From: an archaeon
GTDB taxonomy: Archaea > Nanobdellota > Nanobdellia > Pacearchaeales > GW2011-AR1
Direction: 5' to 3'
Length of the DNA stretch: 64,000 nt
Assembly: GCA_018657525.1 (NCBI GenBank)
Contig: JABHWZ010000002.1
Coordinates: forward strand, 148,590-212,589
The notes under the pieces are model-generated. The model saw only the letters and a list, made by a program, of their open reading frames with translations, had not been told where the DNA came from and made no database searches. Shown in pieces: positions 2,685 to 60,111 of the stretch. The stretch's first letter is position 1; every line of letters starts with the position of its first letter. A program made the translations under genes and the position numbers.

Positions 2685-4739
2685 TTATTCCATATGAATC
2701 TCAAAAGGCTTGGCCACAATGCTACACTGGTTCGGCAATGGTTGATTTCCATATTCGTCTTTACATTTTACATAATAGTTTTTTGAACTATCCCATTCTA
2801 CAAAATGATTCTCCCCATTCAAACTAGTCAGTGCAATTCCATCATCAAAAAGATAATTACAATTTAAGACATCATAAACACATTCTGATTCCTCACTAGT
2901 TATCAACTTAAGATTGTTATCTTCCCGATACGCTCTCACCACAATCGGACTCTCCGCGTCAGATTCAACATAAAAGTTAACTGATTTTTCATCTGAATTG
3001 CCGCCCAGATCCACACATTTAATATAGTAAGTATGTTCCCCTTCTGGAAGATATAAATCTTGAGAATGAGTATAAGAACTAGTTGAATAGAATTCTATAT
3101 ATCTTTCTTCACTACCTGTTGCCTCGTCGCTATAGAAACAAATTGATTTGCCTTCTTCTGCTCCGGCTGAAGTTTCTGCAGTTAAAGTAACCTTAACTAA
3201 ATCAGTATTTTCTCGCACAGTTCCATTAGGCCCGACTTCATTCAATATTAAAGGAATCGTTCCCATCAAATTAAATTCATAAGATTCAGTGTTTGTATTT
3301 CTATTTCCCTCTTCCACTCCAATTGGTTGATCCTTACATCTAAAGTAAAATTTATTTTCATTATCATTTTCTAATCCAGTTAAAGTCGTTTCACATTCAT
3401 AAAGCATTTGCGCGTTCATGTTAGTCACACTTTGTGAACAATCCATTATCTCAGTCATAGCGTCGTATTCTTCATCCAATTTGCTCCATTTACATTCAGC
3501 TGGTTCATTAATATAAACAATTAAGTCTGCTTCAGAAATATCATAACCGACTGGCATGTCATTAATCAAACTAGTTGTAACAATTGCAGGAGCAGTTGTA
3601 TCTGGCCCTTGATCTACGCAAAATTTGAAAACAAAATTCGCAGTATTAAAATTCTCATTTTTATCTTGACACCGAACATATAACTCATAATTGCCGTCAT
3701 TATTTATCTCAATATTTTCTGCCTCATATGCTGCTTTCCCTGGCAAGCTCATGATCTGAGTGTGGTTGTATCTGAATAATTGGCTTCCTCCAAAATAGTA
3801 CTGCATTTCATCAAAACTTGGTTTTCTTAAATAATCAATTTTACATTTTCCAGGTTCATTTAATTCAATTCCAAAATTCAGTGGGGTGAATGCTTTGACA
3901 CATTTGTCTTCTGAAAGAGTGTTTTCAATTATTACTCCTCTATCTGGCGGACTTATCGTGTTATCCGGAGTGTATTCATAATCTTCTAAAAGTGCATCAT
4001 CCCACGGAGTTATTATTGGAAATTTAACATCTTGTGAATTGACCCATATACATTTTTCTTCTTCTGTTCCAACATTCTCCAGTTCACAAGCTTGTCCTAA
4101 ACTTCGACATTGATATTCAGAACATGGCAAAATACCTTGTTGGTTACACTTAGCACAATCTCTCCCCCCTGCCGGTGCTTCCCACGCCTCACAAGTGTAT
4201 TCATAGGTAGATTCTTTTGTTTTTTTATAAGTCAAAAAGAAAACTATTGCAGCTGCAACAATGCCAGCAGTTGCTCCAAATCCAGTAAATCCCTCCCCAA
4301 ACCATCCTTCTGCCCATACCCATTCTTGACTGCTCGCAAGATTATAAGCTAATTTTCCTGTTCCAAAACCTGCGGATGCAGCCGATGCAAGTGAGTGAGT
4401 TAATTCATCTTCTGCTCCAAATAATCCAGCCACCATTGTAACTACCCCATATGCAATTCCTGCCCACGCTGCTGATTGAGCAAAAGTTTGAACATAAGTA
4501 TTTCCAAAAAAAGAATGTGCGTCTCCAAAAGTTGGACCCAACCATTTTTTAGTAGCGTCTGAGCCAAAAGCACCATATTGACTTGTATCTGATGAAAGAA
4601 AGTAGTTTTTTAGAGTTGTCATGCTGCTTGGATCCCCCCCCCTAACAACTCCCATGCCCCCAACAATAAATCCAAAAGCTACAACTCCCATTACTAAAAT
4701 AAAAATCTGACTCAATGCCATCGCCCCTTTATTATTCAT
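2685..4739 (-). CDS. large Cys-containing surface protein, homologous to C-terminal half of the 8248-11970 product
   Basis: Shared CEAWEAPAGGRDCAKCNQQ..CSEYQCRSLGQACELEN versus CLPWEAPTGSDKCSVCNND..CSKYRCESLGQACKLLN and repeated ECKWS/ECKYD segments. Confidence 0.75.
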   Translation of the reverse strand: MNNKGAMALSQIFILVMGVVAFGFIVGGMGVVRGGDPSSMTTLKNYFLSSDTSQYGAFGSDATKKWLGPTFGDAHSFFGNTYVQTFAQSAAWAGIAYGVVTMVAGLFGAEDELTHSLASAASAGFGTGKLAYNLASSQEWVWAEGWFGEGFTGFGATAGIVAAAIVFFLTYKKTKESTYEYTCEAWEAPAGGRDCAKCNQQGILPCSEYQCRSLGQACELENVGTEEEKCIWVNSQDVKFPIITPWDDALLEDYEYTPDNTISPPDRGVIIENTLSEDKCVKAFTPLNFGIELNEPGKCKIDYLRKPSFDEMQYYFGGSQLFRYNHTQIMSLPGKAAYEAENIEINNDGNYELYVRCQDKNENFNTANFVFKFCVDQGPDTTAPAIVTTSLINDMPVGYDISEADLIVYINEPAECKWSKLDEEYDAMTEIMDCSQSVTNMNAQMLYECETTLTGLENDNENKFYFRCKDQPIGVEEGNRNTNTESYEFNLMGTIPLILNEVGPNGTVRENTDLVKVTLTAETSAGAEEGKSICFYSDEATGSEERYIEFYSTSSYTHSQDLYLPEGEHTYYIKCVDLGGNSDEKSVNFYVESDAESPIVVRAYREDNNLKLITSEESECVYDVLNCNYLFDDGIALTSLNGENHFVEWDSSKNYYVKCKDEYGNQPLPNQCSIVAKPFEIHME

Positions 4740-57063: not shown

Positions 57064-57216
57064 ATGAAACAAAAAGTAAGCATTTCATTAGGGGAAGACA
57101 CTTTGAAAAAAGTAGAAGAAAAATTAACCGAAGGTTTATTCAGAAATAAATCTCATATAATTGAATATTCAGTAAATAAATTTTTGGAGAAAGATAATGA
57201 GCAACCAAAATTATGA
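57064..57216 (+). CDS. 50-aa ribbon-helix-helix-like protein (below ORF track size cutoff)
   Basis: MKQKVSISLGEDTLKKVEEKLTEGLFRNKSHIIEYSVNKFLEKDNEQPKL*; overlaps target 1 start. Confidence 0.65.
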   Translation: MKQKVSISLGEDTLKKVEEKLTEGLFRNKSHIIEYSVNKFLEKDNEQPKL

Positions 57217-58042
57217 AAGCTACAAAAGGGCAGTTGGAGAAACTGCTACTAGATTAATTAGGGAGAATTATCCTCAGAGTTTAGATAGTACAGAGTTCTT
57301 AGATTTTATCTCCAGAAAATGCCACACCAAAACAAATGCAAGACATATTCTGGGAAATATTGAAAATTTGTTATTTCTCAAAAATTTATATTTAAATGAA
57401 CATAAAGATAAAAAGGAAGCAGAGAAAGAAGGAGATTTAGGGGATATTTTGCAAAAAGAAGGGTATAAACATAGAGTAATCGGGGATGTTCAAGGATTGA
57501 TTGATTTTAGGAGGTTTTATGCTCCTGGAGAGGTTTTATGTACTTATAACAATCCAGAAGGAAGATTGAGGAATTATCATATGCTTGTTTTATTTAAAGA
57601 AGATTTAGATGGAATAGGAAGAAGTCCAAATCCAGGGAGGGAAGATGAGTATAGCACAAGTTTATTGAATGTTCAAATTCATAGGGAACATAATAATGTT
57701 TCAATTAAAAGTCGTTATAATCATACTGTTAGTAATCCTGATGCAGTGCATTCAAACCAGTTAGATAGAATTGCTCCTGGATTGACTGGTGCAATTGAAA
57801 AAAGGTTAGGAATAAAAATTGATCGTAAAACAGACGAAGCTATTCCTGACAATTTAAAATTAGCAGGAGATTTTGTCATTAGCTATTGGACTACAAATAA
57901 TGGTTTGCGTAGATTCTGTCTCTACACGAATCTCGTTGCTAGCTCGAGTGTTGACGATTTTTCGGACTCGAATAGCTATGGTCGGTGTGTGGTGGCGGGG
58001 GGTAGACGAAGCCACGAAGTGGCTGAGCAAACGAATGCTTAA
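57197..58042 (+). CDS. DGR target protein 1, C-terminal variable region
   Basis: Carries VR1 aligned to TR with A-only differences. Confidence 0.9.
   Translation: MSNQNYESYKRAVGETATRLIRENYPQSLDSTEFLDFISRKCHTKTNARHILGNIENLLFLKNLYLNEHKDKKEAEKEGDLGDILQKEGYKHRVIGDVQGLIDFRRFYAPGEVLCTYNNPEGRLRNYHMLVLFKEDLDGIGRSPNPGREDEYSTSLLNVQIHREHNNVSIKSRYNHTVSNPDAVHSNQLDRIAPGLTGAIEKRLGIKIDRKTDEAIPDNLKLAGDFVISYWTTNNGLRRFCLYTNLVASSSVDDFSDSNSYGRCVVAGGRRSHEVAEQTNA
57903..57987 (+). repeat. DGR variable repeat VR1
   Basis: 85 nt aligned to TR 59002-59086; 13 differences, all at TR adenines. Confidence 0.95.
58010..58024 (+). other. hairpin downstream of VR1 (agccac-gaa-gtggct)
   Basis: 6-bp perfect stem, 3-nt loop. 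Confidence 0.85.
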
Positions 58043-58054
58043 ACGTAAAACAAA

Positions 58055-58813
58055 ATGAAAATAAAAGTAAGTCACGGAAGAATCATTGGAATTGAAGAAC
58101 AAGACCTAAACCCAGTTCTACCAACTACTGATTTGTCCTTTGTAGAAGATAAAGATTTATTTAGGGAAATTAGAAATTACATAAAATCCGAACATCAGAA
58201 TATAGACTACAAACTGAGTTTTCAAGATGGAGTAATGAAAGGTTCAAATCCTTATCTTCAAATTGCAGTTGATATGTTTTTAAAAAATAATTATCCAAAT
58301 TTTAGAATAGCAAGACAAAGAGATTTAGAAACAGACTTAGAAAAATTCAAAGGATTTTACATGGATTCAGGTTTAGTTTTAAGAAGCAAAGACAACCCAA
58401 ATTCAGCTCAAGCAATAAATCTCTACAATCAATTAAGAGCACGAGGATTAAAGGATTCTGAAATCTTTCCAATGTTCATAGATTTAAGAGGTGTGGAATT
58501 AACAAAAGACTTAGAATTTAAACTAACAGATGAATCAACTTACAAACAAGCAGATTGTTTAAATTGGGATTCTGGAACTAGGTATTCTCAAACAGACGAG
58601 GTAGGTTTACCAAAAGAAAAAGACCTTTCAGGAACACGACGAATTTGGACTACAAATAATGGTCTGCGTAGTTTCTATCTCGACTCGGATCTCGGTGCTG
58701 GCTCGCTTGATGGCGATTTGTCGGGCTCGAATGGCGGTGGTCGGTGTGTGGTGGCGGGGGGTAGACGAAGCCACGAAGTGGCTGAGCAAACGAATTTTTT
58801 ACATAACTTTTAA
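58055..58813 (+). CDS. DGR target protein 2, C-terminal variable region
   Basis: Carries VR2; N-terminal part unlike target 1. Confidence 0.9.
   Translation: MKIKVSHGRIIGIEEQDLNPVLPTTDLSFVEDKDLFREIRNYIKSEHQNIDYKLSFQDGVMKGSNPYLQIAVDMFLKNNYPNFRIARQRDLETDLEKFKGFYMDSGLVLRSKDNPNSAQAINLYNQLRARGLKDSEIFPMFIDLRGVELTKDLEFKLTDESTYKQADCLNWDSGTRYSQTDEVGLPKEKDLSGTRRIWTTNNGLRSFYLDSDLGAGSLDGDLSGSNGGGRCVVAGGRRSHEVAEQTNFLHNF
58662..58746 (+). repeat. DGR variable repeat VR2
   Basis: 85 nt aligned to TR; 20 differences at TR adenines, one T-to-C at the 5' edge. Confidence 0.95.
58769..58783 (+). other. hairpin downstream of VR2 (agccac-gaa-gtggct)
   Basis: Same 6-bp stem, 3-nt loop. Confidence 0.85.
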
Positions 58814-59001
58814 AAAGAAGATTTTAATTATTATCTTGTCTAGCATGGGTGCTAGGCCACACGTCAGCTCACTAGTACATTATTTAGATTTATTTTAAGT
58901 CATAAAATTCATTTTCGACAATTAGTAGCGATGATCTTAGAAAAAAGGGATTGTGAACATTGAAGAAAAGGTGGCACAGAGTAAGCTGGCTAAATAGTTG
59001 C

Positions 59002-59086
59002 GTTTGCATAGATTCTATCTCAACACGAATCTCAATGCTAACTCGAATGATGACGATTTATCGAACTCGAATAGCAATGGTCAATG
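59002..59086 (+). repeat. DGR template repeat (TR), noncoding
   Basis: Adenine-rich AAY codon pattern in the VR frame; between target 2 and RT. Confidence 0.95.
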
Positions 59087-59109
59087 ACTTAGCACCTTAG
59101 ACTTTCATC

Positions 59110-60111
59110 ATGAAAACTTACAAAAATCTCTATAAAAAAATTTATGATAAGAAGAACTTAGTTTCCGCCTGGAAAAAAGCAAGAAAAGGAAAAACACAAA
59201 AGAATTATGTGATTGAATTTGAAAAAGATTTAAGAAGGAATTTGCTCAAACTTCATTACGAATTACAAGAAGAAGCATATGCTCCTCTTCCTCTAAAAAC
59301 TTTTGTTTTAAGAGACCCAAAAACAAGGAAAATCAGTAAAGCGGATTTTAGAGACAGAATAGTTCATCACGCAATTAATAATATCCTTGAACCAATTTTT
59401 GAAAAAAGTTTTATTTACAATAATTGTGCTGGAAGAAAAAATAAGGGAACCTTATTTGCTTTGAAAAGATTCGAAAATTTTAGAAGGAAAATTACCCATA
59501 ATTTTAGCTCTTTTGGTTATTGTTTAAAGTGTGATATAGAACATTATTTTCAAAATATCAATCATGTAATTCTTTTTAAAATAATTAAAAGAAAAATTAA
59601 AGATGAAAATCTATTGAATCTTTTAGAATTAATATTCAAGTGCAACAATTCTTCTGAAGGTTTGCCTTTAGGAAACTTAACCTCGCAATTTTTTGCAAAT
59701 GTTTATTTAGGTGAACTAGATTATTTTATAAAACACAAACTAAATGTAAAATATTACCTTCGTTATGTGGATGACTTTGTTCTTTTACACAATTCAAAAA
59801 ATCAATTAAAAATTTGGAAAAAAGAAATAGAGATTTTTCTAAAGGAAAAATTAGAATTAAAACTTCATCCAGAGAAATCTAGAATAATCCCCCTTTCTAT
59901 AGGAATAGAGTTTGTTGGATTTAGAAATTTTTACTTTCATCAGTTGTTAAAACAAAGGAGCATTCGAATTATGAGAAATAAAATTAATTTTTATAAGAAA
60001 GGAGAGATTTCTTCAAAGAAAATCAAAGAAATTTTCCAAGGTTGGAAAGCCTATGCAAGTTGGGCAGATAGTCATTTCCTAATAAATGAATTCAATAAAG
60101 AAATTCATTAA
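59110..60111 (+). CDS. DGR reverse transcriptase
   Basis: EGLPLGNLTSQFFANVYLGELD, YLRYVDDFVLL, KLHPEKSRIIP. Confidence 0.95.
   Translation: MKTYKNLYKKIYDKKNLVSAWKKARKGKTQKNYVIEFEKDLRRNLLKLHYELQEEAYAPLPLKTFVLRDPKTRKISKADFRDRIVHHAINNILEPIFEKSFIYNNCAGRKNKGTLFALKRFENFRRKITHNFSSFGYCLKCDIEHYFQNINHVILFKIIKRKIKDENLLNLLELIFKCNNSSEGLPLGNLTSQFFANVYLGELDYFIKHKLNVKYYLRYVDDFVLLHNSKNQLKIWKKEIEIFLKEKLELKLHPEKSRIIPLSIGIEFVGFRNFYFHQLLKQRSIRIMRNKINFYKKGEISSKKIKEIFQGWKAYASWADSHFLINEFNKEIH

Follow-up and report, generated by a model that had tools for sequence, protein, structure and literature searches.

Does the reverse transcriptase (RT) gene in this archaeal DNA, together with the noncoding repeat in front of it and the two upstream genes that end in near-copies of that repeat, make up a diversity-generating retroelement (DGR), and is such an element still at work? 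In the window, by which I mean the whole stretch of 64,000 nucleotides analysed here, the locus is almost certainly a complete chromosomal nanoarchaeal DGR, in which an RNA composed of RT-16 and the template repeat (TR), copied with errors at adenines, would serve to rewrite the 3' ends of two genes. It is a further example of the published nanoarchaeal DGRs, in a Pacearchaeota-like DPANN archaeon. According to the proposed mechanism, the adjacent RT of the DGR class would reverse-transcribe an RNA made of the RT-16 leader and the TR, introducing errors at adenines, after which the cDNA would replace the 3' ends of the two adjacent target genes, each of which contains an IMH-like motif and a hairpin with a GAA triloop that would guide the replacement.

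The element is situated between Rad50/Mre11-like genes and a cation ATPase. Its flanks, with the Mre11/Rad50-like genes, the cation ATPase and a Na/Ca exchanger, look chromosomal. A viral or prophage context was considered and rejected in view of these flanks and of one scan of IMG/VR with the RT, which gave nothing. All coordinates below are those of the window, and all parts of the element lie on the plus strand.

Template repeat, target genes and cassette

The TR (59002-59086, 85 nt) is noncoding and lies between target gene 2 and the RT gene; it aligns without gaps to VR1 (57903-57987) and VR2 (58662-58746), which lie at the 3' ends of open protein genes. The same alignment had been proposed in an earlier note on this DNA, and realignment bears it out. 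VR1 departs from the TR at 13 positions, every one of them an adenine in the TR (8 A>G and 5 A>T; hypergeometric P = 5e-8), and VR2 at 21, of which 20 are TR adenines (16 A>G, 3 A>T and 1 A>C; hypergeometric P = 4e-12), the lone exception being T59004>C58664, so that 33 of 34 differences fall at adenines when both VRs are pooled. Of the 57 TR positions that are not adenines, none is changed in VR1 and one in VR2.

The counts of 13 and 20 changed adenines in the earlier note are thus reproduced, but two of the changes in each VR probably have another origin. Adenines 59083-59084 read GG in both VRs and open a 3' block that does not differ between the two targets, which is why I read them as the difference between IMH and IMH* (TCGGTG/TCAATG in the window), and probably not as mutagenesis. 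The IMH*-like 3' end of the TR (59079-59088) appears in the TR/VR alignment as GGTCAATGAC, with GGTCGGTGTG in both VRs. With these two positions assigned to IMH/IMH*, the mutable set shrinks from 28 to 26 adenines, 11 of which are changed in VR1 and 18 in VR2. Full A-to-N variation of the TR would allow about 4e14 possible proteins, and a stop could arise at one codon only (AGA). The search of the full assembly that the earlier note had called for, done with a pattern in which the adenines were masked and at most 3 mismatches were allowed, recovers three copies only, namely TR, VR1 and VR2; no further VRs were found elsewhere in this 828-kb assembly, which is 84% complete.

Target gene 1 (57197-58042, 281 aa) consists of an N-terminal domain of unknown fold and a C-terminal VR cassette. 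Target gene 2 (58055-58813, 252 aa) is a member of a DGR-target family that is present in 40 of 181 family genomes. Comparison of the two targets delimits a cassette of 151 bp in each (57886-58036 in target 1, 58645-58795 in target 2), and these cassettes differ only at template adenines plus one T/C, whereas the N-terminal parts of the targets are unrelated. Towards the end of each cassette, 3' of the VR and inside the gene, lies the hairpin AGCCAC-GAA-GTGGCT (58010-58024 in target 1, from DNA folding; 58769-58783 in target 2, from DNA folding and the cassette comparison). Its folding energy is no better than that of shuffled sequences (z -0.72), and GAA-triloop hairpins recur at the same place in many relatives. 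The cassette and the hairpin were missing from the earlier note, as was the RT-16 RNA described below.

Profile searches found no known domains in targets 1 and 2, and archaeal clade-5 DGR targets are usually without recognisable domains (Roux et al., PMC8144416). The AlphaFold2 model of target 2 has a pLDDT of 88 and gives no significant fold match in the PDB (none with E < 0.5) or in viral fold libraries. C-type lectins and TaqVP, a DGR protein, are among its weak, non-significant matches, which would be compatible with a divergent lectin-like variable domain. The predicted structure of target 1, with a pLDDT of 37, is too low in confidence for a usable model. Both targets are presumably binding proteins.

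The start of target 1 is overlapped by an ORF of 50 aa (57064-57216) that resembles RHH/CopG proteins (Pfam RHH_1, weak, E = 0.011). Position 57064 had been taken as the start of the element; it belongs to this ORF and lies outside the core, the ORF being a probable operon partner of target 1 and not a core part of the DGR.

Reverse transcriptase, leader RNA and known elements

The RT gene (59110-60111) is an ORF of 333 aa that matches Pfam RVT_1 (5.5e-19) and PHROG 1423 (2e-114). It contains the motifs LPLGNLTSQFFANVYL and YVDD, just as had been claimed, and also the DGR-type LGNLTSQ; its hinge is without a simple-sequence tract. Among solved structures its closest relative is 8ub7 ('Reverse transcriptase'; 2e-49), presumably the DGR RT of Bordetella phage BPP-1, while group II RTs reach 1e-18 and retron RTs 7e-4, and the clustering with retrons or group II introns that the earlier note had named as refuting evidence is not seen. 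In a tree of 123 RTs, restricted to DGR-type RTs and hence with no retron or group II outgroup, the window RT falls within the archaeal group. The nearest phage or virus RT is that of ANMV-1 (43% identity over 99%), an archaeal-virus DGR and the first archaeal DGR published (PMC4372165). Its nearest genomic relatives are MAGs of Pacearchaeota and other Nanoarchaeota, which shows the assignment to a DPANN host to have been right. These comparisons support membership of the window RT in the DGR class.

That the enzyme might instead belong to retrons, group II introns or a defence system, with an ordinary duplication behind the repeats, has hardly any probability left. The NCBIfam model group_II_RT_mat does score 140.8 bits, under its cut-off of 300, and PADLOC lists generic RT and DRT families; however, the adenine-only substitution pattern already counts as refuting this explanation, and the LGNLTSQ motif, the far better match to 8ub7 than to group II RTs, the nearest viral RT being that of the ANMV-1 DGR, and the TR/VR pairs that adjoin dozens of related RTs all speak against it. 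A second alternative, that of a formerly working DGR which is now inactive and whose VRs are frozen, seems improbable too. In its favour one could cite that no Avd, the accessory protein, was found: there is no Avd-like ORF of at least 40 aa wholly within 58814-59001, between target 2 and the TR, and Pfam PF05635 gives no match in the genome, but the controls are equally silent. Against a relic stand the RT itself, an intact ORF of 333 aa with YVDD, and the single non-adenine change in the two VRs, as near-identity of TR and VRs outside the template adenines implies that little ordinary decay has accumulated. It is a fair inference from these sequences that the element is active or was so recently.

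Between target 2 and the TR lies a structured RNA, RT-16 (RF03019, 58839-58998), with a score of 95.9 bits in Rfam against a gathering cut-off of 50, and with model positions 1-158 of 158 covered. This leader of 160 nt, presumed to be the 5' part of the DGR RNA, ends 3 nt before the TR, and only 23 nt separate the TR from the RT gene. RT-16 is observed in 65 of the 181 family genomes, in the main some 100-130 nt ahead of a DGR RT; a scan of 20 DGR loci located it in 15. De novo structure prediction on MAFFT-aligned leaders gave one helix only, and the curated Rfam model is the better test. As RT-16 adjoins the TR and recurs at DGR RTs, the DGR RNA of the window is probably RT-16 plus TR in one transcript, the structured portion preceding the template. 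The Rfam entry says only 'RT-16 RNA', an sRNA, whereas the copy in the window directly precedes a DGR template, and an open literature search found no published work on RT-16. Its tie to DGR templates means that RT-16 can be used to search sequences for archaeal DGRs, those without an RT included.

Nanoarchaeal DGRs are reported to have, within the target gene, a triloop hairpin, and an IMH and IMH* that differ as GG and AA (PMC4372165), and for four DGR groups of one clade these are TGGGGT and TGGAAT (Paul et al. 2015, PMC4372165). The window DGR resembles those of Nanoarchaeota (DUSEL4) (PMC4372165) in being chromosomal, in its DPANN host and orphan target, in the GRA-triloop hairpin in the target gene, a form that AGCCAC-GAA-GTGGCT fits, in an IMH and IMH* that differ by GG to AA, and in an RT of the archaeal DGR clade. 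It differs from them in having two adjacent targets with one common cassette, in its IMH, which is TCGGTG and not TGGGGT (the exact TGGGGT/TGGAAT motif is absent), and in the lack of an Avd-like ORF between target and RT. Many family relatives carry TCGGGGT or TTGGGGT. The ANMV-1 DGR (KP703175), for all the likeness of its RT, is viral, targets an Mtd-like tail fibre and comes with an annotated Avd, whereas the window DGR is chromosomal. With the prototype, that of phage BPP-1, the window shares A-specific transfer from TR to VR, an IMH, a hairpin 3' of the VR and a related RT. However, the BPP-1 hairpin has an 8-bp stem and a GRNA-type loop (PMC3240598), compared with a 6-bp stem and a GAA triloop here, and BPP-1 has Avd, whereas in the window the TR is followed so closely by the RT gene and the structured RNA lies upstream of the TR.

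A relative of the first target without VR

A syntenic locus in another genome of the family (L195, on contig 53 of G059) holds an RHH-like ORF, a homolog of target 1, target 2, TR and RT. The RHH-like ORF is 50% identical to that of the window and occupies the same place. The homolog of target 1 is 61% identical and has a different C-terminus without a VR; it is the only full-length homolog of target 1 in the 181 family genomes. This VR-less ortholog, together with the near-identical cassettes common to both targets, suggests that target 1 is a new recruit, the VR cassette having probably been copied recently from target 2 onto a VR-less gene. The likeness of the cassettes in spite of the unrelated N-terminal parts fits such a recent copy.

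Alternatively, target 1 could be an old target, the VR of which was lost from the ortholog in G059. I consider this unlikely, though not negligibly so: the polarity rests on one comparison with the sole known ortholog, but the two window cassettes are alike over 151 bp, bar template adenines and one base, behind unrelated N-termini. Two old cassettes may also have been kept alike by repeated gene conversion, the outcome of which would look like a recent copy. Two targets in one element are not unusual, since eight other DGR loci of the family have two or three VRs per TR. If target 1 was recruited recently, the window is likely to be a snapshot of a gene becoming a DGR target by way of a VR cassette.

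Simple-repeat tracts in related reverse transcriptase genes

The window RT is a tract-free member of a lineage in which many RT genes carry a simple-repeat tract, defined here as a poly-G run of at least 7 or (GA) of at least 5. Such a poly-G or (GA)n tract is present in 44 of 95 family RT genes among the matches listed, almost invariably at the hinge that immediately precedes MPLGNLTSQ; at three loci a G10-G12 tract occupies a second site in the C-terminal half of the RT, and there the frame is also broken. Among the matches listed, the frame is broken in 35 of the 44 tract-bearing RTs and kept in 9, compared with 37 open and 2 not open among tract-free RTs (Fisher P = 2e-12). Over the three frames, G tracts are distributed 7/12/11 and GA tracts 2/3/9. 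RT genes contain 49 simple repeats, and hinge tracts of G or GA make up 39 of them. In these tract-bearing RT genes of the same GTDB family, both halves are intact and under purifying selection. The RT tree calls for at least 25 changes in the tract, which has thus been gained or lost repeatedly.

The out-of-frame RT genes have a dN/dS of about 0.1, like the open ones, and an interpretation of the split RTs as pseudogenes was rejected on that ground. The TR/VR pairs beside out-of-frame RTs are roughly as fresh as those beside open RTs, with 14 versus 9 non-adenine differences per kb and 56% versus 54% of adenines changed. Over 74 VRs, the substitution spectrum comprises 765 A>G, 297 A>T and 40 A>C. 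A tract that comes or goes repeatedly, a dN/dS that is kept and TR/VR pairs that remain fresh form the pattern expected of a phase-variable gene, and suggest reversible on/off switching of the relatives' RTs. It is rather likely that the RT is commonly phase-variable in this archaeal lineage, and that a slipping tract at the hinge gates mutagenesis stochastically, RT-less cassettes included.

A two-chain RT, in which two frames together make the working enzyme, is less likely than such switching. Length errors of the assembly at homopolymers in MAGs may account for single cases, with less risk where the tract is (GA)n. A general homopolymer artefact was rejected: elsewhere, most very long G runs are found at the ends of contigs, and most other G9 runs encode in-frame Gly or fall between genes, whereas the RT tracts occupy one site in the interior of contigs and some of them are (GA)n. 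I found no papers on phase variation in DGRs or Pacearchaeota in the open literature, a scope that leaves the main 2017-2018 DGR surveys outside, and the tract is apparently undescribed. If the reading of these tracts as a switch is true, it gives a simple and testable answer to how a DGR stays off most of the time, and documents simple-repeat phase variation in DPANN archaea.

Candidate cassettes without an RT were seen in one relative (G069), where RT-16-TR units have no RT within about 2 kb. For each of the two TRs tested in this genome, a VR diversified at adenines lies about 0.5-0.6 kb upstream, so these units may be DGR cassettes served in trans. The RT found in G069 bears a tract and is out of frame, and the arrangement suggests that one RT serves several cassettes in trans. 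RT-16 without an RT within about 2 kb was also observed at nine further loci, and a TR-like sequence follows most of these RT-16 copies.

Simple runs were also seen outside RT genes. In the window, a secreted protein of 684 aa is predicted on the minus strand (2685-4739) with a weak Ig-like match, and an in-frame G9 run (4634-4642, minus strand) lies near its N-terminus. In another relative (G061, contig 51), a G10 run separates an HTH part from a nucleotidyltransferase-like part that is out of frame, possibly another phase-variable gene.
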